From a bacterium (GTDB taxonomy: Bacteria > Hydrothermota > UBA3073 > JACQXS01), in NCBI GenBank assembly GCA_030605695.1, contig JAUWHX010000026.1, positions 1 to 33,945 on the forward strand: a stretch of DNA of 33,945 bases. The letters run 5' to 3'. Made by a program: the position numbers and the translations under genes. The stretch's first letter is position 1; every line of letters begins with the position of its first letter. The notes beneath the pieces were generated by a model. That model was not told where the DNA came from and did no database searches. It saw nothing but the letters and a program-made list of their open reading frames with translations. Shown here piece after piece: positions 2,621 to 22,029 of the stretch.

Positions 2621-2643
2621 TCGTGAATCGTAAATCGTGAATC
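2621..2643. repeat. Intergenic heptanucleotide repeat
   Basis: Three copies of a 7-bp unit (tcgtgaa, tcgtaaa, tcgtgaa) in the murI-lsrF gap. The same heptamer is found in frame inside genes at 15143-15177 and 18260-18294. Confidence 0.75.
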
Positions 2644-2656
2644 TTGTAATCTGCTT

Positions 2657-3454
2657 TTATAGAGTTGTTCGGGTATAAGAAATTTGATGTCCGAGGAATC
2701 TTTTGCTGAGCTGGCTGAATCCTCTCGGGATGTCAGAAAAGTAAAAAGCGTGATTCGGGTTGGTGGTTCGTGTTCGTGGAGGAGGAATCTCCATACTACC
2801 TAAAATATCTTTAACTTCAAGGGCAACTGAGCTGGCTGAGTCTATAATCTTTACTCCCTTTCCCATAACCTCTTGAATCTTATCTTTTATAATAGGATAA
2901 TGCGTGCAACCCAAAATCAAAGTATCTACATTCTTTTTCTTTAACCCAAGCAAATAACCTTCTAAAACAAGTCTCGTGACCTCATAATTACCTCTTTCCT
3001 CTTCTATAATTGGAACAAGCAAAGGGCAACTTTTTGAATAGACTTTTATATCCCGATTTATCCTGTGAATTGCAAATCTGTATGCAGAACTCTCTATGGT
3101 GGCGCGAGTTCCAATTACACCTATTATATTGTTTCTTGTTGTGCGAATTGCCTCACGAACTCCCGGCTCTATCACTCCAACAATAGGCAAAGAGTATTTA
3201 TTCTTAAGCCATTCAAGTGAAGTGGATGAAACTGTATTGCAAGCTACAACTATAAGTTTTACATCTTTTTTGAGCAAGAATTTAACAATCTGGTCAGAGA
3301 AATCTTTAATTGTGGAAGTGGATTTTCCTCCGTAAGGAACTCTTGCGGTATCACCAAAGTAAATTACTCGTTCCTCTGGCAAAGTCCTCAGAAGCTCACG
3401 AGCTACTGTAAGTCCTCCAATCCCTGAATCAAATACACCAATACTTTTAGCCAT
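2657..3454 (-). CDS. murI: Glutamate racemase MurI
   Basis: A 265-residue cofactor-independent glutamate racemase that makes D-glutamate for peptidoglycan. Family motifs are the N-terminal GVFDSGIGGLTV with the catalytic-region Asp9-Ser10, ACNT with catalytic C72, and GCTHYP with catalytic C183; GVIEPG and DSASS are also present. Length is normal. The variable stretch before the last helix, PPPRTRTTNPNH, is encoded by a degenerate 7-bp repeat (2754-2780), an in-frame expansion in a housekeeping enzyme. The gene lies 20 bp behind a secreted glycosidase gene and is probably co-transcribed with the secreted-protein operon as its last member, an odd place for murI. The start ATG follows GGAGT by about ten bases. 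Confidence 0.95.
   Translation of the reverse strand: MAKSIGVFDSGIGGLTVARELLRTLPEERVIYFGDTARVPYGGKSTSTIKDFSDQIVKFLLKKDVKLIVVACNTVSSTSLEWLKNKYSLPIVGVIEPGVREAIRTTRNNIIGVIGTRATIESSAYRFAIHRINRDIKVYSKSCPLLVPIIEEERGNYEVTRLVLEGYLLGLKKKNVDTLILGCTHYPIIKDKIQEVMGKGVKIIDSASSVALEVKDILGSMEIPPPRTRTTNPNHAFYFSDIPRGFSQLSKRFLGHQISYTRTTL
2754..2780. repeat. Heptamer-like repeat inside murI
   Basis: A run close to period 7 (ttcgggt, tggtggt, tcgtgt, tcgtgga) within the coding sequence of murI. It encodes the proline/threonine/arginine linker just before the C-terminal helix. Confidence 0.55.
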
Positions 3455-3473
3455 AGATAAGATACTCCATTTT

Positions 3474-5795
3474 TTACTTCAGCAAAATAAACTTCTTGAC
3501 TTGTAAAAGTTCACTTCCAATCTTCAGTCTGCAGAAATAAACTCCACAAGGAAAGTCTTTTGCGTTCCAGTCAATCGTATATTCACCGGATTGCTTTAAT
3601 CCTTTAGCAAGCGTATTTATTTTTTGACCACAGATGTTGTATATAGCCAAATCAATTTTTGCTAATTGAGGAATATTGTATATTATATTAGTTATAGCAT
3701 TAAAAGGATTTGGATGCACCACCAGTTTTACATTTTGCACTTTGCATTTTGCATTTTCATCAACTCCTACTTCTTTCTTGTAGAATGTCTCAAGTTTCAA
3801 ATAGTCTGCATAATTTGTAAATGGGTGCTTGTTCGTGGTAAAAACGCGCAGTTTTATCTGATTGTCTCCTGAAATATAATCTCCTACATTATGGATTATA
3901 CCATCCTCCTGAGTAAAATCCTGTGGGCCTATTATTCTCCAGCCAATGAGGTCCCATTCCGAGCTCGAGTAGTTCCAAATGTATAAGTAATTAAAAGTGC
4001 TATCCTCTGACGAATGCCCATTACAAGTTATCCAAATTCTTTTTATGCTATCTCTCGGCTCATCCACATTGTAATAAGTATAAAAGTCTGTGCAATACTC
4101 AATCCACCACTTTGAGTCTATCACAAGATACTGCCCATCATCAGCAGAAAGGGAGTTTTTGTCTCCACTCACTATGGTTCCATAAACTATGCTCAAGGAG
4201 TCACACAAATACTCAGAAGCACAAAGCAGATTCCAGTATGCTCTCAATGCTAACATAAATTCATCAAGCTTTACAAATTTGAGCTCCCCGGGATGTAAAT
4301 TATTTAGTCTTTCCATTATTATACGAATGGAGTCAACATTAAAACAAAAAAGATGAGCACCTGAACACAAGAATAACGGTCTTTCGTTAAAGCTATTAGC
4401 TACACTATCTAACACAGCAACTGCACTATCTATTGTCCCTGTTGCAATTGGTGCAGGAATAACCCAAGGGATATTATTAGAGACTCTGAAATTGCCGGTA
4501 TTTATCCAGCCAAGCTCAGTACCAGTATAACCTTGTGTAAAGCCAAGAAAATTATTTAGTGTTGATGTATATGCAGAAATAATCTCTTCATCCATCCTAA
4601 ATCCATTTATAAGGGCAAGAGCTTTTAGGTCGCACTCATCCATCCTTGATTTTGATTGATTCAAATATTGGCCCAGCAAAGGAAAATCAGTAGGATAGAT
4701 ATAGCCCAAACCAAAGCCTGCAATAAAATAGTCATTATCGGTTTTCGTCTCATAATAATGTTGATAAATTCCAGGGCAATGATTTCTAAACACTGGCTCA
4801 AAATACCAGTTTAATGGAATACTCCCACGCATTGGGTCATCCCATGCATTATAAAATCTATTTTGCATCATGTCGCCACCGCCATCTATCATAGTAAATG
4901 TACAGTATATTTTTGTTGTATCTAATGACACTGTATCACAATGTAGTTGATGATAAACAGTGTCGGCAGGCATTTTTGAATGCACAGAATAATTGACTGC
5001 GTCATACCTTTCGTGCAAAAGCATAAGATTATATTTTGATGCAAGATGAACATGCCATGCCTCATAAACCGGGTTAATGTACACTTCAGGCCAGCCAAGC
5101 ACAATACCAAATGGATTCATCTGCTCGTAATAGGTTTTAAGTAATTCATACTCTTCCGTATCATCAGGATTGGGTGAAAGGTCAACCACGCAGGCGCGAT
5201 TTTCAATAACATAATCTTTCTGTGGATGACCACATTCCCACAACCACCAGTGAATAGTCATCATAGCAATCATATCTGTATTACAATAGGGAAAAAGGCT
5301 GTCTCTTTGCCAAGTATATGCTTCTATTTGGTCAGTCCACATACCCCTCAAATCCCTGAGTTCAGATATTCCGAGGCTATCAAGTTTATTTATATAGTCA
5401 GGATGAGCGACAATGGCACTATCTATTCCAGCCATTGTGAAAGCAATATTTATAGAATGGCGAAAATTAGTGTCATAGAGGATATATCCTTTTACATTAT
5501 TTCTATATTTGCTTAGTGCAGAATCCAAAGAGACAGTATCGCAAGCAATCCAGCCCTTATATTGATAGTAATCAAGCCACCTTTCTGATGGAGTTAAAAG
5601 AAGTGGAGTTATATTGTGCCAAATATCTTCCCAGATTATATAGAGACACGCAGAATCACGATTCACATTACCTTGAAGACTTAATGCCAACAATCTCTCC
5701 TTTTCGGGTGTATTCTTGAGGTCAATAACATCAAGATGTATCCCATAAACTGATACCGACCACAAAAGTATCAAAAAGTTAATGCATTTTCTCAT
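3474..5795 (-). CDS. Secreted GxGYxYP-family putative glycoside hydrolase with sorting tail
   Basis: A 773-residue exported protein. The signal peptide MRKCINFLILLWSVSVYG is followed by a large domain holding the family-naming motif GLGYIYP at residues 362-368 (GxGYxYP). This matches the GxGYxYP putative glycosidase family, whose activity is predicted from fold and gut-bacterial context rather than well characterised. The N-terminal part (about 30-270) fits the family's N domain. Residues about 690-773 are the T9SS-like sorting domain (HPNPFNA, ICGQKINTL, GVYFCRLKIG, KKFILLK). The linker before PNPF is encoded by a 7-bp repeat (3732-3759). A strong GAGGAGG ribosome site precedes ATG. It follows the GH-A glycosidase gene by 61 bp and leads into murI, so a role in extracellular glycan breakdown is a fair inference. 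Confidence 0.8.
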   Translation of the reverse strand: MRKCINFLILLWSVSVYGIHLDVIDLKNTPEKERLLALSLQGNVNRDSACLYIIWEDIWHNITPLLLTPSERWLDYYQYKGWIACDTVSLDSALSKYRNNVKGYILYDTNFRHSINIAFTMAGIDSAIVAHPDYINKLDSLGISELRDLRGMWTDQIEAYTWQRDSLFPYCNTDMIAMMTIHWWLWECGHPQKDYVIENRACVVDLSPNPDDTEEYELLKTYYEQMNPFGIVLGWPEVYINPVYEAWHVHLASKYNLMLLHERYDAVNYSVHSKMPADTVYHQLHCDTVSLDTTKIYCTFTMIDGGGDMMQNRFYNAWDDPMRGSIPLNWYFEPVFRNHCPGIYQHYYETKTDNDYFIAGFGLGYIYPTDFPLLGQYLNQSKSRMDECDLKALALINGFRMDEEIISAYTSTLNNFLGFTQGYTGTELGWINTGNFRVSNNIPWVIPAPIATGTIDSAVAVLDSVANSFNERPLFLCSGAHLFCFNVDSIRIIMERLNNLHPGELKFVKLDEFMLALRAYWNLLCASEYLCDSLSIVYGTIVSGDKNSLSADDGQYLVIDSKWWIEYCTDFYTYYNVDEPRDSIKRIWITCNGHSSEDSTFNYLYIWNYSSSEWDLIGWRIIGPQDFTQEDGIIHNVGDYISGDNQIKLRVFTTNKHPFTNYADYLKLETFYKKEVGVDENAKCKVQNVKLVVHPNPFNAITNIIYNIPQLAKIDLAIYNICGQKINTLAKGLKQSGEYTIDWNAKDFPCGVYFCRLKIGSELLQVKKFILLK
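3732..3759. repeat. Heptanucleotide repeat (attttgc type) inside a sorting domain
   Basis: Four 7-bp units (attttgc, actttgc, attttgc, attttca) encoding the linker ENAKCKVQNVKL immediately before the PNPF strand. Similar runs at the same protein position are at 6121-6147 and 11251-11279. Confidence 0.75.
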
Positions 5796-5809
5796 CTCTC
5801 CTCCTCTCG

Positions 5810-5845
5810 CTACTTCAAAAGCGGCGTTTTTTGCTTATGAGAAAC
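5810..5845 (-). pseudogene. Remnant of a sorting-domain tail
   Basis: In the gap between two cargo genes the minus strand reads VSHKQKTPLLK followed by TAG. This resembles the last residues of the cargo at 10976-12925 (FSQTKKLLLFR, stop), and the DNA also matches it (aaaaaacgccgcttttgaag against aaaaaactgctgctttttag). I take it as the end of a lost cargo gene. It is short, so chance is not excluded. Confidence 0.4.
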
Positions 5846-5856
5846 TATTCCTATTT

Positions 5857-8073
5857 TTAGCGAAGCAGAATCAGCTTCTTTGTAATATTGTAATCTCCTG
5901 CTGTGAATTTTATAAAATATACTCCACCTCCAAGCTTCTCGGTATCCCACACTACTTCGTTAATCGTTAATTGTTCATCGTGGATCGGGATTTCCCGAAC
6001 AAGTCTGCCAGAAATATTGTAAATCGTTAATCGTAAATCGTTAACCGCCCGATTTGCGATTAACGAATAACGAATAACGGTTTTTCCTATAGATGGATTA
6101 GGGTATGCTTCTAATTTTACACTTTGAGATTTGAATTTTGCGTTTTCTTCAACTCCTGTATTCCAATTAAGTGCAACGCAATATGGAAAATCGGCTATCG
6201 GCAAACTGTCAAATGTAGTTGAAGTATCACCGACAGAGTAAGTTGGTATATCATTTGCTGAGCCACTCACGAAGTCTATGAGAACAGCAGAAGATACGGT
6301 TGCATCGTTGACCGTAAGGTTCAATAATTTATCTGTATAGTTATCCTTTGCTTCTACGCCGAGCCAATATACTACAAACCGTTTGCCCGTTGTAGTATCC
6401 TCAAAATTAGCGGAAGTAAATTTGTTAAAGGATGTGGAATCTACATTGATATTCTCAAAATGTGATGAGAAATTCTCTGTGTTTTGTACAGTCTCATCGA
6501 AGATGCTACAAATATTCTGAAGGGCGTAATATGACTTTTTGCGAATACAATTTGTGTCAATCTTTACAAGTTTCCATATATCAAACCTTGAGCCATCCCA
6601 ATGAGTTTCTACATACAGTTTATGACTATCTGATTCAAGCTCAAAGAACTTCAGGAATTTGCCCGATGCTGGAACCCACCTGTATTCACTCGTTGAGTAC
6701 CAATTTCCAATACTGAACCACAGGGAATCCAGTGCCGCAACAAAAATACTAATACTATCACCGTTTCCCACGCTTCTTGACCAAAAAGTATACCACCCAT
6801 CTTCTGTCAACTCGAAATCATAGTAAGCATAACCTGAATCTCCCATACCATCTGGTGTCCAGATACAAGAATCTCCTGAAGCGAAAGGGTCATAAACGGT
6901 CTCCATTGGTATGGATATTCCGGTATAGTCTTCGCCCTCTGAAGTAAAAGTATACACATCTTGTGGAGTACAAACCACACCGCAAAATGGAGCTTCACCA
7001 AACTCAAAATCGGTTCGTTCAGAATAGTCACTAACCCAATCAGTCCTTCCCATATTGTTTGTTAGCGAGTGAAAGTCCCAATCAACGGTCCAGGTGGTAA
7101 TCTCTATGCCCTGTTTGAGATTGAGAATATATCTTCTTGCAAGATACTTTGCCTGCGTTGTCTCAGATGAATGCTGAGGATTAAACGGGTCGGGACTCAG
7201 TGGGTCTGGATGAATTGAATCTGAAAGGAAGCAACCTTCAGTATCCCAAATCTCAATGCTATCGCTAAATAATGCAATCGTATCTTTCAGGGCGTTTATT
7301 TCTTCTTCATAAGAGTCATAGGGACTCTCAAATTGAGTATTTGGCTTCCATACCATTAGATTTTGAGGTGCTTCAGGTAGTGTTCTATAAGGGTGTATGC
7401 CTATTTTATCTACATATTCGCTAACACCATTCTCAAGACAGGACTTGATAAATTTAATATCAACAAGTGCCATCCCTCCAAGACAGATAATAGCATCAGA
7501 ATCAATTGTTCTGATAGTGGTTGCCGTTGAACACACAAGAGCAGAGTATTGCACAGGATTTGCCGATGGACACCATGTCTCATCAAGATTTGGCTCATTC
7601 CAGATTTCCCAATGTCTTACTCTATCTTGATACCTTTTTACGACTGTATCTACATAGGCAAGCCAGGCAGAGAAATAGACAGCACTATCTGGTATAGGAG
7701 GAAACCCTTTTGGATTGTATAGAACATTTGGGTCAGATAGAATAAGATAAGGTATAATACTGTGGTCAAGAAGCTGATTTATAATTGTGTCAATAGAAGT
7801 AAAGTCATAGTATCCAACAGAGTCGTGTTCCACATATCCCCACGGCACTCCGAGTCTACACCACTTGACACCAGTTTCAAACATTTTTTCGGTTATATCC
7901 TTACGGATAGGACCTATATCAAGCCAGATAGTATGTATTCCTATACCAGAACCTGCAATCTCCGCGGAATTCCTTGGCTCAAGTTGTCCTCCAGAGATAG
8001 AAGTACATAGCAGAAGAGAAATAATCAAATACCCAATCCGCATCAGGTGGAAAGAGATTTTTTTGTTTAACAC
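5857..8073 (-). CDS. Secreted clan GH-A glycoside hydrolase (GH39-like) with sorting tail
   Basis: A 738-residue exported TIM-barrel glycosidase. The acid/base glutamate is E160 in HWEIWNEPN, and the probable nucleophile is E279 in EIWDTEGCF, the pairing expected for retaining clan GH-A enzymes such as GH39/GH5-like. A jelly-roll-like region (about 400-520) follows, then a sorting domain (YPNPSIGKTVIRYS, NISGRLVREI, GGGVYFIKFT, KKLILLR). I choose the GTG at 8073: it has GAAGG five bases upstream and lies one base after the TGA of the upstream gene, implying translational coupling. An ATG at 8043 gives a cleaner signal peptide (MRIGYLIISLLLCTSISGG) but lacks a ribosome site. Its sorting domain is rich in 7-bp repeats and contains a perfect palindrome at 5985-5998. 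Confidence 0.8.
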   Translation of the reverse strand: MLNKKISFHLMRIGYLIISLLLCTSISGGQLEPRNSAEIAGSGIGIHTIWLDIGPIRKDITEKMFETGVKWCRLGVPWGYVEHDSVGYYDFTSIDTIINQLLDHSIIPYLILSDPNVLYNPKGFPPIPDSAVYFSAWLAYVDTVVKRYQDRVRHWEIWNEPNLDETWCPSANPVQYSALVCSTATTIRTIDSDAIICLGGMALVDIKFIKSCLENGVSEYVDKIGIHPYRTLPEAPQNLMVWKPNTQFESPYDSYEEEINALKDTIALFSDSIEIWDTEGCFLSDSIHPDPLSPDPFNPQHSSETTQAKYLARRYILNLKQGIEITTWTVDWDFHSLTNNMGRTDWVSDYSERTDFEFGEAPFCGVVCTPQDVYTFTSEGEDYTGISIPMETVYDPFASGDSCIWTPDGMGDSGYAYYDFELTEDGWYTFWSRSVGNGDSISIFVAALDSLWFSIGNWYSTSEYRWVPASGKFLKFFELESDSHKLYVETHWDGSRFDIWKLVKIDTNCIRKKSYYALQNICSIFDETVQNTENFSSHFENINVDSTSFNKFTSANFEDTTTGKRFVVYWLGVEAKDNYTDKLLNLTVNDATVSSAVLIDFVSGSANDIPTYSVGDTSTTFDSLPIADFPYCVALNWNTGVEENAKFKSQSVKLEAYPNPSIGKTVIRYSLIANRAVNDLRLTIYNISGRLVREIPIHDEQLTINEVVWDTEKLGGGVYFIKFTAGDYNITKKLILLR
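5957..5990. repeat. Heptanucleotide repeat in the GH-A gene sorting domain (loop after GRLV)
   Basis: Units tcgttaa, tcgttaa, ttgttca, tcgtgga encode the loop IHDEQLTINE after the GRLVREI strand. The run abuts the palindrome TCGGGAttTCCCGA (5985-5998). Confidence 0.75.
6019..6080. repeat. Heptanucleotide repeat in the GH-A gene sorting domain (loop before IYNISGRL)
   Basis: Units tcgttaa/tcgtaaa run to about 6045, and then taacgaa units run in the opposite orientation at 6060-6080. Together they form a partly inverted arrangement. They encode SLIANRAVNDLRLT in the sorting domain. Confidence 0.75.
6121..6147. repeat. Heptamer-like repeat before PNPS in the GH-A gene
   Basis: Degenerate 7-bp units (actttga, gatttga, attttgc, gttttct) encode EENAKFKSQSVKL, the linker before YPNPS. 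Related to 3732-3759 and 11251-11279. Confidence 0.55.
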
Positions 8074-8074
8074 C

Positions 8075-8896
8075 TCAACCTTCTTTTCCTCCCCATTGCC
8101 AATAGAGATAAGGAAGTATTGGTATAAGCATAGAAACTGTCTCCTTAGCATCGGGAAAACAGAAAAAGATTGCAGGAAACTCAGCCCGAAAATTTCTGAG
8201 AATTGCCCATCTATTCTTCAGAAAAGGGGCTATCCGAAATCCATAAGTAAATTGGTATTTCCTTGGCACATTATCCAAATAAATAAATGTAGTCCCATAA
8301 GAGCCAGCAGAATGAAACGAAAGCCATTTATAAATTCTCCAATCAATTCCTAAAGACAAATCTGGACTTATTAAGTCTTGAAATCGCCTTCCGAAATATT
8401 CAGGACGATTAGAATTCTCAATCAGAAGATATTCGGAATAGGTAACACCTAATGAGAGATGCAGACGCAGACGTTTCGAAAGATGCCATGTAGCATTAAG
8501 TCGGTTATACCAACTACTTCCTTTTCGCACAACACGAAGAGAGTCGTAGTCTTCCATCAAGTTAATTTCTTTAAAAAGGCATTGAAACATTGTTTCATAA
8601 GCAAGAGCAGGTTGAATCCTATGTTGTTTTGCAAGAGCAAACCTAAAATTAAAACTCGGAACTCCTCCAAGCAAGCATTCAATGTCAATCTCGGTAGTCA
8701 GCCAATCTGTTATTCCCCACCACATCCAGCCCGGCGTCAAACCCAAAACCGGAAAATTATATGCCCATTCACCTTTATGAAAAGTATATGCGGTATAGGA
8801 ATCAAGAGGGTGAAGCATATTTTCATTGATGAGTCCTATATTAGTTTCTTGTGCTAAAATGTCCGAAAACAAAAGAGACAATAGAAAAACACTCAT
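8075..8896 (-). CDS. Putative outer-membrane beta-barrel protein, unknown function
   Basis: A 273-residue exported protein with a short hydrophobic leader (MSVFLLSLLFSDILAQ). Amphipathic strands alternate with aromatic ends (WMWWGITDWLTTEIDIE, LRLHLSLGVTYSEYLL, WLSFHSAGSYGTTFIYLD, YQFTYGFRIAPFL), typical of a small outer-membrane barrel; it has no sorting tail. The ATG at 8896 has a weak AGAG upstream; a TTG at 8917 would add seven residues including an arginine and is an alternative. The gene ends with TGA one base before the GTG start of the GH-A gene, so the two are translationally coupled. It might be a surface partner of the glycosidase, but I do not recognise the family. Confidence 0.65.
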   Translation of the reverse strand: MSVFLLSLLFSDILAQETNIGLINENMLHPLDSYTAYTFHKGEWAYNFPVLGLTPGWMWWGITDWLTTEIDIECLLGGVPSFNFRFALAKQHRIQPALAYETMFQCLFKEINLMEDYDSLRVVRKGSSWYNRLNATWHLSKRLRLHLSLGVTYSEYLLIENSNRPEYFGRRFQDLISPDLSLGIDWRIYKWLSFHSAGSYGTTFIYLDNVPRKYQFTYGFRIAPFLKNRWAILRNFRAEFPAIFFCFPDAKETVSMLIPILPYLYWQWGGKEG

Positions 8897-8944
8897 ACAT
8901 GCATCTCTTGAAAACAATTTTTTATTTAACCGTATAACTAATTT

Positions 8945-9013
8945 TTAGTGAAGAAAATTTAACTTTTTCATAGTTGCAAAGTTGCAAACCTCAAGCTCGC
9001 AGAAATAATGATT
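8945..9013 (-). pseudogene. Remnant of a cargo gene: isolated sorting-domain tail
   Basis: Directly after the stop codon of the 9014-10960 gene, the minus strand reads FCELEVCNFATMKKLNFLH then TAA. This aligns residue by residue with the end of the propeller protein at 14971-16458 (FCKLEVGEFKAMKKLILLH, stop). There is no start codon or upstream coding sequence, so it is the scar of a lost or fused cargo gene. Confidence 0.7.
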
Positions 9014-10960: not shown

Positions 10961-10975
10961 TATCTTTTCCTTTCG

Positions 10976-12925
10976 CTACCTAAAAAGCAGCAGTTTTTTG
11001 GTTTGTGAAAATTCATCACCGACCGTTAATTTACAAAAATAAACCCCTGAACCTACTTTTTCGCCTAAATCATTCTCTCCATCCCAAACTACAGTAACGA
11101 GTGATGAGTGACGAGTGACAGGCAGGGGTTTGACCAACCGGCCTGTCAAATCGTAAATTTGAATCCTTGTTACTTGTGACTTGTCACTTGTTACTGGTAT
11201 TTGACAACAAATAACGGTCTTTTGAGTAAATGGATTAGGGTATATCTTTAATTTTGCACTTTGCACTTTGATTTTTTCACTTTCTTCAACCCCGCTTTCA
11301 CTAACTCGGACCATAAAGTAAGTCTGGACACTGTCTCCAAAATTGTCCTTTAAAGTGAGCCAGAGTGCATAATATCCTATTTCAAGAGAATCCGTGTCCC
11401 AATACCCAAGAAGCGAATCCCTGACCCCTTCAGTATGCTCAAGCCCAATTAGTATTAAACTATCCCAAGTAGGTGGAGGGGCATACCATAGTCTGTAAGA
11501 ACCAAATGAGTATGGAGAACTTGGACCTACATCAATGTATGCTGAACCATATATTGGAACAAAGTTTGATATAGGAACAACGGTTGGTGAATCTACTGAA
11601 GCAAAATATAAAGCTGATTCATCAAGCAATCTTGGCGACTGAAAACTCCTGCTATTGAGAAGTACGGACTTCCCTTTATCCTTAAGACAAAATTCACTCA
11701 TTAAGTATCCGTGGGATAGTGCAAATATCCCTTGCTCAGCCACAAAAGTCTCAGCAGATATACCACACTGGTCAGCAAAAATAAATGAGTTTCCATAAAT
11801 CCAGAACGGCCCACCTTTGCCATCATGAGTTGAACTTTTCATATAGAGAGTATTATAGTTCATAGAGAGAATTTCCGAAATTATACTGTTTTCTAAAGTA
11901 ACTATTGCTGTATCCTGCATATGCAAATGCCAGTTCACTACTTTAGTATTTACAAGTCTCAGTCGTCTATCAGAAATCGGAATCTCCCAATCAGAATAAT
12001 AAGTCCCGGGCGTTAAACCAGATATAGTAAAACTGTCAGTCCCTGTTGCCCGAATAATAGGAGGAGTCTCACAGTCACGGATAGTTACATCTGAACCCGA
12101 GTGAAACCAGGGTCCATTTTCCAAAATATAGCAGGAATCAACAGTAATACAATAATCTACTCCCTTACACAAAGGTAAATTGTCAGGCAAAATCCAGTGA
12201 GCTACAAACTCTTCGTGAAATGGAAAATAATCGACTGTATCTCCTTCCTCAAATACAAGCCACACAGTCAGAGACCCGGAGCGAGTAAATGTCCCACGAC
12301 TTGTATCTGAAAAAGCATACTCTCCTACAAGCCCATGACAGTCCTCTATCGTAATTTCTGCTTGATTACACAAAAACCCAGCTATCCAGTCATCAAAATA
12401 TGTGTTTATCCAACTAACCTGACTATTATACCCGCAGTTCACAAGAGCAGGGAAAAGATTTGCGTAAAAATGCGAATTCTCAAGCTTGAGCTCAGAATTG
12501 TCGGCAGTAAAAAAGTTAAATTGCCATGAGAAAATTTGCAAGAAGCCGACACGACTCGAATCAGCGAGAAGCTTCCCATTATTAAGTAACCATATATCGC
12601 CATAGTTTAGGAAATCAGCATTTTCAATTAAGATGACCCCATTGTTCATCACACAAATATCTCCGTAGTGCAGATAAGTTGTGTCGTGCACATAAAGTGT
12701 CTCGTTTGGATTAGGATATCCGACAATAAGAGTATCCAGTATCTTTTTCGCCTCAAAAATGGCCTGTGGACTTTTTACCACTGCTTCCGGAAGTACAAGA
12801 TTTCCTGAGCCTGCGCTCATCCTCACAAACTCATTTATCTTATCAAAATTGGTTGTTGCCAAACCGTGTTGTGTTAATCCCCAGCACAAGATAATAAAAA
12901 CTATAATGGTTCTCTTTGACATCAT
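10976..12925 (-). CDS. Secreted beta-helix-like cargo protein, paralog B of three
   Basis: A 649-residue exported protein (signal about 1-23, MMSKRTIIVFIILCWGLTQHG). It has the same plan as its neighbours: solenoid-like strands at about 75-470, the landmark GVDYCITVDSCY, PISDRRLRLVNT, an Ig/Fn3-like module (YGSAYIDVGPSSPY), then a sorting domain (YPNPFTQKTVICCQ, YDLTGRLVKPL, GSGVYFCKLTVGDE, KKLLLFR). Unlike paralogs A and C it has a canonical PNPF tail, and this tail carries three 7-bp repeat runs (11095-11120, 11166-11197, 11251-11279). Two adjacent ATGs (12925, 12922) follow GGGAGGGG; the second has better spacing. No enzymatic motif is seen. Confidence 0.75.
   Translation of the reverse strand: MMSKRTIIVFIILCWGLTQHGLATTNFDKINEFVRMSAGSGNLVLPEAVVKSPQAIFEAKKILDTLIVGYPNPNETLYVHDTTYLHYGDICVMNNGVILIENADFLNYGDIWLLNNGKLLADSSRVGFLQIFSWQFNFFTADNSELKLENSHFYANLFPALVNCGYNSQVSWINTYFDDWIAGFLCNQAEITIEDCHGLVGEYAFSDTSRGTFTRSGSLTVWLVFEEGDTVDYFPFHEEFVAHWILPDNLPLCKGVDYCITVDSCYILENGPWFHSGSDVTIRDCETPPIIRATGTDSFTISGLTPGTYYSDWEIPISDRRLRLVNTKVVNWHLHMQDTAIVTLENSIISEILSMNYNTLYMKSSTHDGKGGPFWIYGNSFIFADQCGISAETFVAEQGIFALSHGYLMSEFCLKDKGKSVLLNSRSFQSPRLLDESALYFASVDSPTVVPISNFVPIYGSAYIDVGPSSPYSFGSYRLWYAPPPTWDSLILIGLEHTEGVRDSLLGYWDTDSLEIGYYALWLTLKDNFGDSVQTYFMVRVSESGVEESEKIKVQSAKLKIYPNPFTQKTVICCQIPVTSDKSQVTRIQIYDLTGRLVKPLPVTRHSSLVTVVWDGENDLGEKVGSGVYFCKLTVGDEFSQTKKLLLFR
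11095..11120. repeat. Heptanucleotide repeat, paralog B sorting domain (loop after GRLV)
   Basis: Units taacgag, tgatgag, tgacgag, tgacagg encode VTRHSSLVT, the loop after GRLVKPLP. Confidence 0.7.
11166..11197. repeat. Heptanucleotide repeat, paralog B sorting domain (loop before IYDLTGRL)
   Basis: Units cttgtta, cttgtga, cttgtca, cttgtta encode PVTSDKSQVTR between the first and second strands of the sorting domain. Confidence 0.8.
11251..11279. repeat. Heptanucleotide repeat, paralog B, before PNPF
   Basis: Units attttgc, actttgc, actttga, ttttttc encode EKIKVQSAKLK just before YPNPF. Confidence 0.65.
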
Positions 12926-12943
12926 TTCCCCTCCCGTTACCTC

Positions 12944-12985: not shown

Positions 12986-13009
12986 CCGTGGCTTATGTAT
13001 TTGATAATT

Positions 13010-14956: not shown

Positions 14957-14970
14957 AATATCCCTCCTTT

Positions 14971-16458
14971 TCAGTGAAGAAGAATCAATTTCTTCATTGC
15001 TTTAAATTCACCAACCTCAAGTTTGCAGAAATAGATACCAGCCATTGCTCTCTTACCACTCGAGTCAGTTCCATCCCAAACTATTTCGTGAGTCGTCTCA
15101 ATATCCGTATGGAGAAAGGTGCGGATAACTCTGCCAGCAATATCGTGAATCGTGAGTCGTGAATCGTGAGTCGCTAAGTTAACTCGTTTTTCACTAACCT
15201 TTAACCCCTGAACCCTAATTACTATGGTTTGAGTGAATGGATTAGGAGAAACTATCATTTCGGTTTTCGGTGGTCGGTTTTCGGTGGTCGGTTCTTCTAT
15301 TCCCGGCGATAAAGTATCGCCCAAGGAATTTGTCTTGATTAAGTAAACATCGGCATATCCGGGGTTAGATGGTTCAATGTATCCTGTTATAATATAGCCA
15401 CTATCAGCTGTCTGTTGCACGGCATAACCACAATCATTATAATTTCCTCCGAAGAGCTTAACCCATGTTGTATCACCGAGAGAGTCTGTCTTGATAAGAC
15501 ACACATCATACCAGGTAGCACCACAAGAAAAGGTTCCCGTTACGATATATCCACCATCTGTGGTTTGCTGAACATCATAGCCATAATTATCCCATACAGC
15601 ACTTTCCCCAAAAGTCTTGGTCCATACCGTATCACCCCAAGCATCTGTTTTGATAAGATATACATCATAACGAGGATGAAAAGAGCTGGTCTCTCCTGCT
15701 ATGATATATCCACTATCCGTGGTCTGTTGAACAGACCAACCTCTATCAATGTGAAGCCCTCCAAAGGTTTTAGTCCACGCTGTATCACCGAGAGAGTCTG
15801 TCTTGATGAGATATACATCTTGGACTCCAGCACCAAACGACTCAGTTTCTCCTGTTATAATATACCCATCATCTGCAGTCTGTTGAACACAATAACCCCA
15901 ATCGGAATCATCTCCACCAAAGGTCTTGGTCCATAGTGTATCACCATCTGTATCTGTCTTGACAAGATATACATCAAAGTCAGTACTAAAGGAGCGAGTT
16001 CCTCCAACTATAATGTATCCACTATCAGTGGTTTGTTGAACGGAATGGCCCCACTCATAATTACCTCCACCAAATGTCTTGGTCCAGAGCGTATCACCAT
16101 CTGCATCTGTCTTAATGAGATATATGTCATGACTACCAGCACCAAAGGAGCCGGTGTAACCTGTTATGATATAGCCACTATCTGCGGTCCGCTGGACATC
16201 ATAGCCCTTTTCTACATCGTTTCCTCCAAAAGTCCTGGTCCAAAGTGTATCACCCAGAGAATCTGTCTTAATGAGATATACATCAACATTGCCAGAAAAA
16301 TCAGTCTCTCCTGCGATGATATATCCACCATCTGTGGTTCGTCTAACGGAATAGCCCAAATTATTATTACCTTCTCCAAATGTCTTGGTCCAACTTTCTG
16401 CACGGATTGAGCAGAAGGTAGATATAACTACTATTCCTAACCAGAAATGACCTCTCAT
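14971..16458 (-). CDS. Secreted seven-repeat beta-propeller protein with sorting tail
   Basis: A 495-residue exported protein (signal MRGHFWLGIVVISTFCSIRA). Residues about 20-385 are seven tandem repeats of about 52 residues with consensus TFGG-x4-D-x-G-x-SVQQTTDSGYII-x-G, then DVYLIKTDSLGDT-x-WTK. Seven units fit a closed seven-bladed propeller. A sorting domain (SPNPFTQTIVIRVQ, HDIAGRVIRTF, AGIYFCKLEVGE, KKLILLH) follows. No catalytic residues are apparent; a binding role is likely. An in-frame ATG at 16470 is overlapped by the GGAGG ribosome site that serves the ATG at 16458, so I start there. Sorting-domain loops carry 7-bp repeats at 15143-15177 and 15260-15294. Confidence 0.85.
   Translation of the reverse strand: MRGHFWLGIVVISTFCSIRAESWTKTFGEGNNNLGYSVRRTTDGGYIIAGETDFSGNVDVYLIKTDSLGDTLWTRTFGGNDVEKGYDVQRTADSGYIITGYTGSFGAGSHDIYLIKTDADGDTLWTKTFGGGNYEWGHSVQQTTDSGYIIVGGTRSFSTDFDVYLVKTDTDGDTLWTKTFGGDDSDWGYCVQQTADDGYIITGETESFGAGVQDVYLIKTDSLGDTAWTKTFGGLHIDRGWSVQQTTDSGYIIAGETSSFHPRYDVYLIKTDAWGDTVWTKTFGESAVWDNYGYDVQQTTDGGYIVTGTFSCGATWYDVCLIKTDSLGDTTWVKLFGGNYNDCGYAVQQTADSGYIITGYIEPSNPGYADVYLIKTNSLGDTLSPGIEEPTTENRPPKTEMIVSPNPFTQTIVIRVQGLKVSEKRVNLATHDSRLTIHDIAGRVIRTFLHTDIETTHEIVWDGTDSSGKRAMAGIYFCKLEVGEFKAMKKLILLH
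15143..15177. repeat. Heptanucleotide repeat, propeller gene (loop before IHDIAGRV)
   Basis: Units tcgtgaa, tcgtgag, tcgtgaa, tcgtgag, tcgctaa: two copies of a 14-bp double unit, then a variant. They encode LATHDSRLTIHD. Confidence 0.85.
15260..15294. repeat. Heptanucleotide repeat, propeller gene (linker before PNPF)
   Basis: Units tcggttt, tcggtgg, tcggttt, tcggtgg, tcggttc: again a duplicated 14-bp double unit. They encode TTENRPPKTE before the SPNPF strand. Confidence 0.85.
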
Positions 16459-16470
16459 AATCACCTCCAA

Positions 16471-16500
16471 TTCGTGTTGGTGAATCGTGTTCGTGAATAA
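16471..16500. repeat. Intergenic heptamer-like repeat upstream of the propeller gene
   Basis: A degenerate run (ttcgtgt, tggtgaa, tcgtgt, tcgtgaa) just upstream of the propeller gene's ribosome binding site. The last unit matches the heptamer at 2621 and 18260. Confidence 0.6.
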
Positions 16501-16514
16501 CCACGACCCACCAC

Positions 16515-18146
16515 CTATTTAACTAATATAATCTTCCGCACACCTTTAAATTTATCTGTCTCCATACAAATGAAATATATGCCGGATGGAACACCTTTCA
16601 AGTCCGGTTTAATAGAATGTTTTCCGGGAACCAAATTCTTGCTCAGTAAAGTCAAATGTAGACTTCCACTTATATCATACAATTTAATGCTCACATAAGA
16701 CTCATTTTCAAGCCCAAAATTGAGAAGTAGCTTTATGCCATTCTTGTTTATAGTGGGATACACATCAAGAAAGCATTTTTCTGCATCTACATTTATTTCA
16801 TCACTACCTGATCCTCCGGGCCATTCGTCGCAACCTATATCGGGATGAACAACGTCTCTCGTATCTCCATCATAATCGGTCGGATAACCAGGGATTGGAG
16901 TAGCCATAGCGATATTTGCAGAAGTAATATTATCAATATGCAAATCAGTTGCAGACACATATTGGGGACTCCAGTCAACACTGTGAGTATCAAGACCTGT
17001 TACCCACCAGGCTTCCAATGTATCATACTCGCTTATTCCTCTTTTGCCCACTTTATAGTTTGGAGCATACAAATTATTATAGTCTGATGGAATATCACCA
17101 AAAGCAGGTAGCTGAATGCAATAGCTGCTGCCCCCCGTGGTGTAGAGAGAATTATTCTTGAGTATAACCGAATTGTCTTTGCTCATCACACTACCATCGT
17201 AAAAGCAGGTTCCCAATCCATAAAAAGAATTATAGTAAATCTCTGTGGAATCTTCACCCGAAAGAACTACATAAATACCAAAAACATTGAAATCGTAAAT
17301 CATATTGTTATAGATATGGACCTCAACCATTTCGTCATGAATATATATACCACAAGAATCTATATTATGTATCCTGTTCCGGTAAACATCTGTGTATTCT
17401 ACATAGTCATATAAACATATCCCCCGATGAGTACATCCAGAAACATCATTATCATATATCTCAATATATCTGGAAGAAGAAGCACCAGAGCCATTTCCTG
17501 TTACATAGATTCCGTACTCACAGGAATCTATTCCTGCCAAAATGTTGTCATAAATTCCCATATATTCACACTGCCCGGTTGGAGAAGTGCCAGCTATGTG
17601 AATTCCTGGTCCTACATTTCCTGCTTGTAAACTCCAGTTACTGATTGTACAATTTCTTATAGTATCGTATTGACAATCACCATTTACACAGCCACTTGCT
17701 GGACAACCAATCCTTATTCCTTGACTCAAGGTGCTATCAATGGTGAATCCGTCTATTATTACATAAGAGGCATCTCTTATGTCAAATCCTTTATCATATC
17801 CATCAATAGTCACTCCATTAGGAGAAGCAAGAAAAACTACACAACCAGTCGCATCTCCATCGTCATCCCCGGTAATCAGTATATCCTCACTCTCAGATGC
17901 ATGGATATATGTCCCAGTCTCCACAAATACAGTGTCGCCGGGCCCAAGAACCTTGCTATCAATTACATACCGCACCGTTGCATAAGGCAAACCTGTACTA
18001 CCATCACCCGTTGCATTATCTCCCACTGCTGTACACCATACATCATTCGTGGTGCTATTATCATTTACATACCAATTAGCTCCACCAAGGTAAGTATACT
18101 CTCCTGCCAAGAGCCAACCTATTACCACTAATAAAAACTTTTTCAT
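16515..18146 (-). CDS. Secreted parallel beta-helix protein (DUF1565/NosD-like) with sorting tail
   Basis: A 543-residue exported protein (signal MKKFLLVVIGWLLAGEYTYLGG). The WYVNDNSTTND start, GDGSTGLPYATVRYVID and LGPGDTVFVETGTY are the classic entry of right-handed parallel beta-helix proteins of the DUF1565/pectate-lyase-like type. Rungs of the form YIEIYDNDVSGCTHRGICLYD run to about residue 340. The segment DYDGDTRDVVHPDIGCDEW (about 425-445) is the usual end of this family. A sorting domain with a weak PNPF site (YPTINKNGIK) follows and ends KIILVK. Carbohydrate binding or lyase activity is possible, but no catalytic residues can be assigned. AAGGAGGG precedes ATG; it follows the C25 gene by 13 bp. 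Confidence 0.8.
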   Translation of the reverse strand: MKKFLLVVIGWLLAGEYTYLGGANWYVNDNSTTNDVWCTAVGDNATGDGSTGLPYATVRYVIDSKVLGPGDTVFVETGTYIHASESEDILITGDDDGDATGCVVFLASPNGVTIDGYDKGFDIRDASYVIIDGFTIDSTLSQGIRIGCPASGCVNGDCQYDTIRNCTISNWSLQAGNVGPGIHIAGTSPTGQCEYMGIYDNILAGIDSCEYGIYVTGNGSGASSSRYIEIYDNDVSGCTHRGICLYDYVEYTDVYRNRIHNIDSCGIYIHDEMVEVHIYNNMIYDFNVFGIYVVLSGEDSTEIYYNSFYGLGTCFYDGSVMSKDNSVILKNNSLYTTGGSSYCIQLPAFGDIPSDYNNLYAPNYKVGKRGISEYDTLEAWWVTGLDTHSVDWSPQYVSATDLHIDNITSANIAMATPIPGYPTDYDGDTRDVVHPDIGCDEWPGGSGSDEINVDAEKCFLDVYPTINKNGIKLLLNFGLENESYVSIKLYDISGSLHLTLLSKNLVPGKHSIKPDLKGVPSGIYFICMETDKFKGVRKIILVK

Positions 18147-18159
18147 ACACCCTCCTTTT

Positions 18160-21100
18160 TCAACGGAGCAAAATCAATTTCTTCGTAATATTGTAATCGC
18201 CTACTGTGAATCTTATGAAATATACTCCACCTCCAAGCTTCTCGGTATCCCACACTACTTCGTGATTCGTGAATCGTGAATCGTGAATCGTGATTTCTCG
18301 AACAAGTCTGCCGGAAATATCGTAAATCGTTATTCGTGAGTTGTTAATCGTCTTGATTCCACCTACTGAATAGCGAATAATGATTTCATCAGAGCGGGAT
18401 GGATTTGGATAGAGAGCAATGCCAAAACTTCCTGGTAATTTTGTTTCTTCAGCTCCAGTTCCGTAAACCTTTATCCTAATAGGGATATTAGAATCATCAA
18501 CATTCAGACTGAAATCTAAATAATGTCCATAGGGGGCTGAGGAACTGATTTCAAAAGAGAACCATCCCTCCACTACTCCCTTACCCGGTATATCACCAAA
18601 AATTAGACTGTCATACGGAAGGATCGTAACATAAGAGTCGGGACAAGATATATTTCCAGATGTATTAAATAAAGGGGAAGTCCCCTCGTTAATCAGCCAT
18701 ATATACACAAACACACTCTCCCCCGGGTCAACGATACCATCGTTGTTGCCAAGTGAGTCATTTATAATAAGGTCTCCTATGCGGAGTTGGGGTTCAGTTT
18801 CAAGTTCTCCTACTCTCACATCATCAATATAAAAGCCTTCTTCTACATCTTTATTATCTGAAACAAAGCCAAATTTAACTTGAAGTGTATCTCCAATAGG
18901 ATATTTTGAGAGATCATAAGAGTATTTTGCCCAGTCTGTCTCAAATCCACTTTTCACTTCTTCAAGTGCTCCTCCACACCCTATAAAATCAAGTGTATCC
19001 TCAGCCCCGCCGTTGGCGGGGTCAATTATAGCATAAATTCCATCCCCCTCATACCCATGAGCAGAATAGATAGCGACATCAAATCGGCACCAGAAAGAAA
19101 GCCAGGACTTTGGTCCAAGAGTAAATTCGGGACTTAAGAGCCAGCAAGTATCTATATCATTTTCATATTCCCAGCTCGTAGTGTCTCCACAATACCAAGA
19201 ATGCAAAGAAGAATGATAGTTATGTTGTGTAACTGTCCATAAGTCTGTTGCTCCGCCGTGAGTCCAGTTAGTATCGGATTCAAAGTCATCAAAGAAACTA
19301 ATTGTTCCTTGTCCAATTTTAAGCAAGAATGTATCTTCAAATTCTTCTGAATAGCCAAGACTTTTGGAGTTTAGAATAATCTCGGCAAAATGAGGAGAAG
19401 GACAAGTAGGTTTTACAGCAATCCTATAAGAGAAATTACCATAAGAATCAGCTTTAATACGCTTAAGAGTTCCCAGTGTGTCAAGAATAATAAGTTCAGT
19501 GTCAGGTGAACTGATTTCTCCTTCTACATCCAGAGCTCCTCCTCCCGTATTTTTTATAGTTATCCATAACTCGGAAGTATCTCCTGGCGAGAGAATCTTA
19601 TCCACTGCATAATACTGATACTCAAGCCAAGGCGTTTGAACCAAGAAATTCAGATTAATGTCTTCAAAGTTTTGGATACTCAAAGTACAGGGAACTAAAT
19701 GTCCGTTTTGGCAAGTTGAATCCACTCTAAAACTAAAGTCTCCGGATACAATATTGCCAGCAGAAATGTCACCAAAATCATGAGTGCTGTCTAAAAGAGT
19801 GATATAAGAATCGTTAGTTCGGAGCGTTGCATTTACTCCGTCTGCCTGTTCGGTGCCGTAATTTTTCAGAGTAACTGTTAAATCAATTAACTCGCCGGGG
19901 TTTATTTCTCCATTGATTCCTGAATCGGATATTTCCTGACTATAATATCCGGGACAGGGACCTGTAGAGAAAACTATTGCCTTTTCTTGACGGGGATAAT
20001 AATTATGATAACTTGCAGTAACCAAAAGCGTTCCCGGTGAAGTTGGGTTCACTGTAAATATTGCCTCGCCAGCCTGATTTGTATAAGAAGTCGCAAAAAC
20101 TTCATCATCAAAATATTTATTGCAACAAACAAGTGCTCCTTTTATTGGTGATCCATCATGCGTCACCGAGACTTTAAATCTTGATTCACCAACTATCAAG
20201 CTTTCTGGATAAGAAATCTGTAATAAACCAGAGGGTTCACCTGTCCAAATATCAAGTTCTGGGTCTCCTAGAAGATTCAACTGATACTGATGCCAGCGGA
20301 ATACATTCTCGTTTCTGGAATAAGCAATATAATCCATTTTTGTGTGGGCAAGTGTAGCACCTATATGAGTTTCGCCTTTTTTAAATATGTTACAAAAGAA
20401 ACTCTCGTCTATCTTGTCTGAGTATCCGAAGCCCGGGTTTCCGGGAGAACCCCATCCATATCTTGAATTCGCAATAAACGCAATCCCTCCACCATTTGGA
20501 TTTAGTACCCAATGCTCACCGATACAATCGTAATCAAAAGCTCCACACCAGCATCCTATGGAATATAAGATTCCCTGCGCATCACCATTAGTTAGTGCAT
20601 CCATATCTGATTTGCCCAAGCCGTCAGGACCTATTCCCATATAACCAATACTTCCGTGCCCATCATGATTTAACAGTGAATTCCCGGAATTCATTGCATT
20701 TATTACGCTATCACGATTCTCATTTCCAAGTGATTCATAAAGCTTATGTATATTGAAATCTGTTGGAAATAACTCACCAATCATATTTTTGCCAATCCCT
20801 GCGTCTGTATAAGGGTCTGTCCACAGTATTTCAGCCATAAAGAGTGCGTCATCAAGATACCCTGGAGGAGGGTTTTTTTCATATTTTATAGTTTTGTTCA
20901 CAAAAGTTTGGACATCCGAAATATCACGCACAGGTGCTCTTCCAACAAAAATATCAGGATAAAGGTCAACCGAATCATCTACCTCACCAAAGATATAGTT
21001 GTTATTGGCATCCCAGGTCCCATCAAGGTCTGAATAATAGAGGTCAGAATGGAGACTATCTTCATCTGGAATTGGGAGTCCAGAACTACAGGTCATTGCA

Positions 21101-22029
21101 TAAGCAACTCTTGAGGGAACAACGACATTCATAGGGTCTGGGTCAGTGTCTCCGCCCAAGAGAACCCATACGAGTCCGGAGTCCTGAGCCGCTATTTTCA
21201 AGAAGTTTCTTATCTTTTCTTGAAGGTCTCTGCCTGTGTAATTTGCGTCAATCCACTCCGTGGTGCGGATTACAGACTTAATACCCTTTGAGGTTTTCCA
21301 TTGGACGAGAGGTTCAAATTGAGACGCAAGCAACGCTTTGGTTATAATCACATACTCATATCCTTGATAGCTTGTTGAGCTTGCGAAATCCCGATTTATC
21401 GGGGATAGCTTGATAGCTTGATAGCTAACATCCTCAGGATTTATTACGAGATCTTTTACTAATTTTATCATTTTGGGAGGTATATTTCGGTATTCGGTGT
21501 TCGGTATTCGGTGTTCGGTCAGTTCTATACTAACATCTATGCTCGTATAGAATTTAAGTTTCCTGGTAGCAGGAACCCACTGCATTGGATAAACAAGAAC
21601 TTCAGCGATTTTATATCCACGCATTGAGCCCTCTCCTGCAAATTCTATAAGTTTGCCGGGATACTCATCCGCTGATTTGTAAACCTCTAACTTTGGCTCA
21701 ACAAATTCTGTGATTTGTGATTTAAGATTTGGCATTCCACTTAATATCTGCGGTGGTTGAGACGGGCATACATTATATTCTCCAGCAAGCCACTTAAATT
21801 CACTTCCCGCAACTTTTACCTCTTTCACAGTGGTTCCTTCAGGCAACAGGAAATAAACTGCCTTAACCGGAAGCTGAGGTTCTCCCGGAGCAGGAATAAA
21901 ATTGCAGGTCAGGATTTTCGGAACTTCGTATCCCTTAATCGCATTAAACGAGAGCTCCTTTTCCGAGAAATACACACTTTTGGTAATCTCCCCAAGTCCC
22001 AAGATACTTACTAAAATGATATAAAACAT
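18160..22029 (-). CDS. Gingipain-like C25 cysteine protease, secreted, with sorting tail
   Basis: A 1289-residue exported endopeptidase. It has a signal peptide (about 1-17) and a propeptide-like region to about 215 (ELSFNAIKGYEVPKI, PQLPVKAVYFLLPEG). The C25 catalytic domain (about 222-590) has YVIITKALLASQFEPLVQWK, the probable catalytic His458 in NHDGHGS and Cys493 in YSIGCWCGAF. CARDB/Ig-like modules (about 650-860) and a MAM-like domain (about 885-1040, FFDDFESDTNWTHGG, LLSPEFTL) follow. The sorting domain (YPNPSRSDEIIIRYS, YDISGRLVREI, KKLILLR) ends the protein. GGGAGGAG sits before ATG. It is the first gene of the long operon. In-frame repeats mark the propeptide junction (21366-21427), the propeptide (21487-21520), the MAM-like domain (palindrome 19005-19021) and the sorting domain. 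Confidence 0.9.
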   Translation of the reverse strand: MFYIILVSILGLGEITKSVYFSEKELSFNAIKGYEVPKILTCNFIPAPGEPQLPVKAVYFLLPEGTTVKEVKVAGSEFKWLAGEYNVCPSQPPQILSGMPNLKSQITEFVEPKLEVYKSADEYPGKLIEFAGEGSMRGYKIAEVLVYPMQWVPATRKLKFYTSIDVSIELTEHRIPNTEYRNIPPKMIKLVKDLVINPEDVSYQAIKLSPINRDFASSTSYQGYEYVIITKALLASQFEPLVQWKTSKGIKSVIRTTEWIDANYTGRDLQEKIRNFLKIAAQDSGLVWVLLGGDTDPDPMNVVVPSRVAYAMTCSSGLPIPDEDSLHSDLYYSDLDGTWDANNNYIFGEVDDSVDLYPDIFVGRAPVRDISDVQTFVNKTIKYEKNPPPGYLDDALFMAEILWTDPYTDAGIGKNMIGELFPTDFNIHKLYESLGNENRDSVINAMNSGNSLLNHDGHGSIGYMGIGPDGLGKSDMDALTNGDAQGILYSIGCWCGAFDYDCIGEHWVLNPNGGGIAFIANSRYGWGSPGNPGFGYSDKIDESFFCNIFKKGETHIGATLAHTKMDYIAYSRNENVFRWHQYQLNLLGDPELDIWTGEPSGLLQISYPESLIVGESRFKVSVTHDGSPIKGALVCCNKYFDDEVFATSYTNQAGEAIFTVNPTSPGTLLVTASYHNYYPRQEKAIVFSTGPCPGYYSQEISDSGINGEINPGELIDLTVTLKNYGTEQADGVNATLRTNDSYITLLDSTHDFGDISAGNIVSGDFSFRVDSTCQNGHLVPCTLSIQNFEDINLNFLVQTPWLEYQYYAVDKILSPGDTSELWITIKNTGGGALDVEGEISSPDTELIILDTLGTLKRIKADSYGNFSYRIAVKPTCPSPHFAEIILNSKSLGYSEEFEDTFLLKIGQGTISFFDDFESDTNWTHGGATDLWTVTQHNYHSSLHSWYCGDTTSWEYENDIDTCWLLSPEFTLGPKSWLSFWCRFDVAIYSAHGYEGDGIYAIIDPANGGAEDTLDFIGCGGALEEVKSGFETDWAKYSYDLSKYPIGDTLQVKFGFVSDNKDVEEGFYIDDVRVGELETEPQLRIGDLIINDSLGNNDGIVDPGESVFVYIWLINEGTSPLFNTSGNISCPDSYVTILPYDSLIFGDIPGKGVVEGWFSFEISSSAPYGHYLDFSLNVDDSNIPIRIKVYGTGAEETKLPGSFGIALYPNPSRSDEIIIRYSVGGIKTINNSRITIYDISGRLVREITIHDSRFTNHEVVWDTEKLGGGVYFIRFTVGDYNITKKLILLR
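18260..18294. repeat. Heptanucleotide repeat, C25 gene sorting domain (loop after GRLV)
   Basis: Five units (tcgtgat, three tcgtgaa, tcgtgat) encode ITIHDSRFTNHE after GRLVRE. It is the cleanest run of this heptamer in the window. Confidence 0.9.
18320..18352. repeat. Heptanucleotide repeat, C25 gene sorting domain (loop before IYDISGRL)
   Basis: Units tcgtaaa, tcgttat, tcgtgag, ttgttaa, tcgtc encode KTINNSRIT before IYDISGRL. Confidence 0.75.
19005..19021. repeat. GC-rich perfect palindrome in the C25 gene
   Basis: CCCCGCC-gtt-GGCGGGG, a 7-bp stem with a 3-base loop, stands out in an AT-rich gene. It encodes DPANGGAED in the MAM-like domain and looks like an in-frame micro-insertion. Confidence 0.6.
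21366..21427. repeat. Octamer repeat with embedded palindrome at the C25 propeptide/catalytic junction
   Basis: Three 8-bp units (gatagctt) at 21404-21427 flank the palindrome TCCCGATttATCGGGG (21389-21404), with a further gatagctt at 21366. The block encodes SYQAIKLSPINRDFASSTSY, between propeptide and protease domain. The palindrome core CCCGAT-nn-ATCGGG recurs at 29030-29043. Confidence 0.7.
21487..21520. repeat. Heptanucleotide repeat in the C25 propeptide
   Basis: Units tcggtat, tcggtgt, tcggtat, tcggtgt, tcggtc form a duplicated 14-bp double unit. They encode TEHRIPNTEYRNI. Confidence 0.85.

Follow-up and report, generated by a model that had tools for sequence, protein, structure and literature searches.

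The stretch of DNA analysed here (the window, 33,945 nucleotides) carries many short tandem repeats of seven nucleotides, most of them inside genes. This raises the question of how a unit whose length is not divisible by three comes to be so frequent in coding DNA, and why it is found so often in the loops of one domain, the T9SS type A sorting domain. The preliminary description of this DNA had proposed an active process that generates heptamers and is tolerated at structural loops. The excess in coding sequence, the clustering and the fast turnover between sister species reported below all agree with that proposal, and the explanation that we consider probable is a lineage-specific mutational supply of heptamer arrays which is filtered by the structural tolerance of the proteins.

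Period-7 runs in the window and in the genome

The window belongs to the metagenome assembly of an uncultured bacterium (G000; 1.98 Mb, 93 contigs, 84% complete). Runs were located by TRF and by a lag-7 scan, self-matches at lag p being scored +1/-1.5 with a cut-off of at least 9 in the window and at least 12 in a genome sample of 725,358 bases, which consists of the window and stretches from 14 other contigs. In the window the lag-p scan (score of at least 9) gave 14 runs of period 7, 10 of period 14 and 0-3 for each of the other periods from 4 to 13. The period-7 runs listed previously were present at, or adjoining, nearly all of their positions within a few bases (TRF, lag-7 scan). The 14-bp doubling that had been read in several of them was also found, the runs starting at 15143, 15260 and 21486 being 100% period-14, and the period-14 runs of the window are mostly such doubled heptamers.

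The 725-kb sample contains 142 period-7 runs, compared with one in an order-3 Markov simulation of equal size. Other periods gave 1-6 runs (periods 2-6 and 10-13), 11 runs (period 9) and 39 runs (period 8). The period-8 runs were intergenic in 25 of 39 cases in a first count, which is the reverse of the period-7 distribution. The preliminary description had made its reading depend on an excess over a shuffled-codon background, and such an excess was found: 119 period-7 runs were observed in coding DNA against 1-8 after synonymous shuffling, the backgrounds being made by shuffling synonymous codons within each gene or by redrawing codons genome-wide. The frame-neutral periods 6, 9, 12 and 15 were near background in the coding sequences (3, 5, 4 and 1 runs). 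Since the 7-nt unit dominates even in coding sequences while the periods that keep the frame stay at background, the preference is mutational and frame selection is not its source. According to microsatellite theory, repeats in coding DNA should have lengths divisible by three, whereas here a unit without this property dominates, so the preference for seven nucleotides must stem from the mutational machinery. Coding DNA thus records this preference with selection acting against it.

At least 73 distinct circular heptamer classes were counted among 119 arrays. A tendency towards one variable position per heptamer is modest only (0.525 observed, 0.426 expected) and is partly owed to stop avoidance. 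Run lengths in coding sequences peak at 29-36 bp (80 of 124 runs; 7 of 18 for intergenic runs), which is the length expected if 21 bp are added to a seed of 8-15 bp.

Positions in sorting-domain tails and in other proteins

The host domain of the tail arrays is the T9SS type A sorting domain (TIGR04183 / PF18962). Each of the ten proteins of the window that were tested exceeds the TIGR04183 cut-off (23 bits), the domain matches the solved T9SS tails 8glk/8glj, and the genome has 150 Por_Secre_tail matches as well as SprA (439.6 bits in total). Eighteen of the 142 runs in the sample are intergenic and 124 are coding, the latter being divided among tails (46), other parts of tail-bearing genes (6) and other genes (72). 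With the tail defined as the sorting domain plus a 40-residue linker, the density is 1,896 runs per Mb in tails, 257 in intergenic DNA, 135 in other coding sequences and 62 in the rest of the tail-bearing genes. These values hardly change when the window is excluded (1,905, 240, 137 and 64 per Mb), and nine held-out tails beyond the sample gave 1,894 per Mb, so that the anticipated clustering in sorting domains was borne out (about 1,900 runs per Mb compared with 135 in other genes).

The favoured sites in the tail are the linker before PNP, strand 2 with the loop that follows it (TVIRYSL), strand 3 at its start together with the residues leading up to it (LTIYDISGRL), and the turn that follows GRLV; no array was found in the C-terminal part beyond this turn in the sample tails. 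Three places had been named earlier (the linker, the loop before IYDISGRL and the loop after GRLV), whereas the favoured sites are about four. The arrays frequently take in the edge of a conserved beta-strand. When mapped on AF2 models of two window tails (pLDDT 82.9 and 80.5), they fall at the disordered N-terminal linker, at loop 2-3 with the start of strand 3, and at hairpin 4-5.

In the window, the tail of the GxGYxYP protein (3474-5795) has an AAAATGC array in the linker before PNP (3726-3757, minus strand). Three minus-strand arrays are found in the tail of 5857-8151: a weaker TCGTTAA array in the hairpin after GRLV (5957-5987, score 11.5), AACGATT/ACGATTT in the loop before IYNISGRL and the start of strand 3 (6016-6047) and ATTCGTT over the conserved strand 2, TVIRYSL (6050-6079), the last two located by the lag-7 scan, which also gave a weak run at 6123-6146. 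The tail of 10976-12925 likewise has three on the minus strand, namely ACTCGTC in the hairpin after GRLV (11093-11119), AACAAGT read as VTSDKSQVT in the loop before IYDLTGRL (11166-11198, lag-7 scan) and a short TTTGCAC array in the linker before PNPF (11253-11270, TRF and lag-7 scan). Both arrays in the tail of 14971-16470 (minus strand) show the 14-bp doubling. The first, ACGATTC (THDSRLTIHD, 15142-15173), lies before and into strand 3 and corresponds in the AF2 model to residues 42-52, the loop end and strand 46-51; the second, AAAACCG/ACCGACC (15258-15292, TRF and lag-7 scan), occupies the disordered linker before strand 1 (residues 3-14, with coil at 1-12). The same protein has repeats of about 156 bp at 15608-16392 encoding beta-propeller-like repeats, which are ordinary protein repeats.

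A C25 (gingipain/PorU-like) peptidase with a T9SS type A sorting domain is encoded on the minus strand at 18160-22029 (PF01364, E 4.8e-69; TIGR04183, 42.5 bits) and hosts two arrays on that strand. In its tail, ACGATTC (ITIHDSRFTNHE; 18259-18293) lies at the beta-hairpin after GRLV and corresponds in the AF2 model to the end of strand 53-59, the turn 60-65 and the start of strand 66-72. The other, ACCGAAC/ACCGAAT (EHRIPNTEYRN; 21486-21519, TRF and lag-7 scan), is in the propeptide region. The lag-7 scan gave in addition a weak run at 18319-18337 and a run at 21709-21730 that had not been listed before. Of the runs listed previously, the one at 21486-21519 is thus outside the tail, and a GAATCGT array at 2618-2646 (TRF, lag-7 scan) is intergenic, flanked by genes ending at 2532 and 2657. 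Also intergenic, between two genes, is a previously unlisted inverted pair AGAGTTN / NAACTCT around a T-rich centre (31010-31062), which may form a hairpin or a terminator. A degenerate 21/42/84-bp tandem repeat (TCAACCAAAAGTTAGTGGAAA) in the intergenic region at 23027-23261 has a period of 21 without heptamer units.

Tails are favoured, but a tie of the arrays to sorting domains in particular, as had been supposed, is not supported. Of the 124 coding runs in the sample, 78 are located elsewhere than in tails, essential cytosolic enzymes are among the hosts, and arrays are present in many other phyla. The non-tail hosts include PheT, MurD, carbamate kinase, a UvrD/RecB-like helicase, a SurA-like protein and, judged by eye, a large aminoacyl-tRNA synthetase of the ValS/IleS type. 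Seven arrays, mostly near domain junctions, are found in a three-domain glycosyltransferase/LpxB-like protein. Here two GT2 glycosyltransferases and an LpxB-like protein make up one frame of 1,052 aa (locus L048, 3127-6285, contig C42 of G000), with arrays near the junctions at aa 324-345 and 646-700. The parts are in separate frames in G007 and G004, the third part is in another frame in G002, and all are fused in G008. Heptamer arrays may aid gene fusion, but as the frame is fused in G008 as well they are no more than a possible cause.

A perfect consensus array would give an in-frame stop in 34 of 115 coding arrays, while none of the 115 real arrays has one. Moreover, the 19 coding arrays within the first 35 residues have a mean hydropathy of +0.27 compared with -0.93 for internal arrays, as expected from a filter at the protein level.

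It might be supposed that the arrays are themselves selected for, either because variation in the length or sequence of exported proteins is adaptive (contingency loci) or because it is favourable for a beta-strand of the sorting domain to be extended. The 14-fold enrichment in tails over other genes, the fast turnover of the arrays and the alternation of polar and apolar residues in the array peptides, which run into conserved strands, would all agree with this. However, loops of essential enzymes in the cytosol are filled by arrays as well, the lack of in-frame stops in all 115 coding arrays speaks against on/off frameshifting, and variation in the sorting domain would not be displayed if the domain is removed on export. 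The T9SS sorting domain is normally so removed. We regard selection for the arrays as quite improbable.

The tails could also have shared their arrays through duplication or recombination of array-bearing sorting domains. There are 150 tails in this one genome, and heptamer families recur by loop (AGAGTTN in the linker, ACGATTN before IYD). Nevertheless, the array-free C-terminal half is no more similar in pairs that share a heptamer (0.575) than in other pairs (0.565), and close pairs (0.86-0.88) differ in their arrays. Tail C3_36139, for example, has no arrays while C3_37329 has three, at 0.86 similarity, and in C37_37810 and C37_36126 the same four loops are occupied, each tail using four heptamers and the two together eight different ones. 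Tail duplication is thereby largely refuted as the cause of the tail arrays and is very unlikely. The recurrence of related heptamers at the same tail loops, a point against the explanation given below, indicates that coding constraints, or seeds in the conserved strands (TIYDI, VIRYSL), also shape the arrays.

Turnover between related species and the probable origin of the arrays

A sister species of the same genus (G001) could be aligned to G000 in synteny over 130 kb. Mean identity at the array sites in coding sequences is 0.81, with 41% of sites below 80%, compared with 0.935 and 5.4% in control windows (odds ratio 12, p 1e-6). Length has changed at 32% of array sites and at 1.8% of control windows, and 16 of 52 array comparisons are at 97% identity or more. 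Growth in steps of 21 bp, as had been postulated, was observed in clean form: at aa 393 of the UvrD-like helicase AAGAGAC has about two copies in G001 and five in G000, and in an LVIVD propeller (C37:44245) two copies became five. As a point against the explanation given below, no further clean +21 step was seen in comparison with this closest species, and several changes are not multiples of 21 (e.g. 3, 6, -27). Moreover the heptamer itself can be switched. In the SurA-like protein this occurs at equal length at aa 215 (AACCCCG vs AATCCCC) and aa 297 (AACACCG vs ATTCACG), and in a tail linker (C3:54339) with a length difference of 3 nt (AGGGTTT vs AGTCCAC).

In G002, a more distant congener, the orthologous sites have a lag-7 match of 0.50, compared with 0.28-0.33 at other lags. 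This residual periodicity indicates that several arrays are ancestral and have decayed at constant length. In the C25 peptidase the array at 21486-21519 has a decayed counterpart of equal length in G002 (lag-7 match 0.52), and that at 18259-18293 is also unchanged in length there (lag-7 match 0.38). G002 had suggested that arrays overwrite unrelated sequence at equal length, but with residual lag-7 periodicity at most sites the decay of ancestral arrays explains most cases, the hairpin array at 18259 being less clearly one of them. At greater distance, the PheT loop has AAAACAG in G000, AAATCTC in G005, AAATATC in G007 and a palindromic insert in G006, and the helicase loop has a 21-nt tandem repeat in G003. 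The protein fixes the site of an array and the lineage its content.

The same loops carry other in-frame repeats. Palindromic inserts of about 18-33 nt occur (e.g. CCCGCC-AA-GGCGGG, carbamate kinase, L101), and in G003 tandem units of 15 nt and 21 nt are in frame in PheT and the helicase. Such repeats were seen in L081 and L351 (G003), L075 (G006), L101 (G000) and in G000/G001 gene alignments.

The insert in carbamate kinase is a single block of 63 nt, composed of a 33-nt array and the CCCGCC-AA-GGCGGG hairpin, and it is absent from all ten relatives. Such a block is what would be expected of a dispersed, mobile or copied element, in which ready-made heptamer cassettes are inserted or gene-converted from site to site in the manner of Rickettsia palindromic elements. 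The recurrence of the same heptamers at dispersed sites and in unrelated phyla, and the switching of heptamer identity at constant length, can be read in the same way. Against this, there are at least 73 heptamer classes in 725 kb with no common flanks apparent, the +21 steps start where the sister species has a two-copy seed, and the units continue in phase into the flanking sequence. We therefore consider a mobile cassette unlikely, if less so than selection.

With a mutational supply filtered by protein structure, the array-making step would be tandem duplication or re-copying (slippage or templated repair) with a strong intrinsic 7-nt step, acting on chance 7-nt-spaced repeats anywhere in the genome. 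The arrays built by this heptamer-biased process would have about 4-5 copies each. Inside a gene a net change would survive only if it leaves the frame intact, typically as +21 or -21 nt (three heptamers, seven residues), and base changes inside the units would weed out in-frame stops. Arrays would then persist where they are tolerated: in sorting domains these places are the disordered linkers, the turns of hairpins and the edges of strands, and elsewhere they are interdomain linkers, surface loops of enzymes and signal peptides. Repeated contraction and re-expansion could swap the heptamer at a site while the length of the site remains close to what the fold dictates. Tolerance alone predicts mostly intergenic arrays, and the intergenic density, about seven times below that of tails, counts against it. 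It is suggested that the frame constraint shields coding arrays from decay by 7 or 14 nt, which may explain the excess of tails over intergenic DNA.

As to the source of the step, a polymerase footprint has been suggested as the cause of the heptanucleotide preference, in other work cited in PMC4692102. A bolder version, which we hold to be unlikely, is that patchily distributed bacteria possess a polymerase, reverse transcriptase or repair pathway that is dedicated to this task and works in a 7-nt register. It would write the arrays largely independently of local sequence and would be a continual source of new in-frame loops and linkers, for which the tails of exported proteins are the main sink. 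The arrays offer a concrete route by which proteins gain or rewrite loops and linkers, seven residues per step, and pairs of sister species make it directly testable why bacterial repeats favour seven nucleotides.

Distribution and relation to known heptanucleotide repeats

In a scan of 84,980 species genomes, exact (GATTCAC)n of four copies or more was found in at least 116 stretches, and the matches listed come from many phyla, including cultured Halomonas/Vreelandella and Acinetobacter. Among 120 genomes of the phylum of the window, three copies of GATTCAC were found only in G000, G001 and two genomes of the same class, and the reversed control pattern gave no match in these 120 genomes. 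In loci of relatives, period-7 runs are present within the order and class, and none was found in 129 kb from the wider phylum. The trait is thus patchily distributed. Ten heptamers are shared across phyla compared with 3.9 expected, but the loci compared had been picked by one heptamer and the sharing of a repertoire is only suggestive. Long AATCGTG arrays of 60-170 bp, some at contig ends, were seen in Betaproteobacteria SG8_41 and Proteobacteria SZAS (L211, L266, L222, L224, L238, L261), and these may break assemblies.

With a fragmented metagenome assembly an artefact of assembly or binning comes to mind. However, near-identical arrays occur in the independent assembly of the sister species, the coding frames are intact, and the same heptamer arrays are found in cultured isolates, which refutes an artefact for the bulk of the arrays and leaves it a negligible probability.

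Heptanucleotide repeats had been noted earlier as a feature of cyanobacteria, which is correct, but they are documented well beyond that group and inside genes too (PMC4679880, PMC4692102, PMC2700814). In the open-access literature we found no description of heptamer arrays in sorting domains, in agreement with the preliminary description, and no genome reported with dozens of heptamers, a coding bias, fixed loops and switching between sister species. What appears to be new is thus the heavy, fast-changing intragenic use of many heptamers.

Several known systems share part of these features. Geobacter metallireducens has a four-copy GGGACCG heptanucleotide element at 49 intergenic and intragenic sites (PMC2700814), which resembles the arrays in having four tandem heptamers within and between genes and differs in its single consensus, its alignable sequence and its proposed regulatory role. 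Rickettsia palindromic elements are found inside protein-coding genes (PMC10969869 and references there) and, like the arrays, are short in-frame repeats in unrelated genes and compatible with the fold (here carbamate kinase and the UvrD-like helicase, compared with relatives). They form palindromic families with a body of about 100-150 bp, whereas the arrays are non-palindromic, of about 30-36 bp, with many units and without a common body. The 7-bp repeats of the contingency locus HMW1A in Haemophilus (PMC8262952) are also length-variable, and the change in unit number between close relatives that marks phase-variable loci is found here too, but there is no single target gene class. As regards on/off switching by frameshift or promoter spacing, none of the 115 coding arrays carries a stop and the clean steps between species are of 21 nt.

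The closest likeness is to the bacterial heptanucleotide STRR/SSR, for which GGGNATC in Xanthomonas and Nostoc (2007 survey, as cited in PMC4692102) and TAACTGA in Beggiatoaceae, cyanobacteria and Bacteroidetes (PMC4679880) are examples. These too are short arrays of head-to-tail 7-nt units, patchy across phyla, with indels in 7-nt increments between strains, and units far above chance are found here as well (142 runs compared with about one simulated). They consist, however, of one or a few G-rich or TAACTGA units and are mostly intergenic, whereas the present arrays use dozens of heptamers, lie mostly in genes, occupy fixed protein loops and switch heptamer between sister species.
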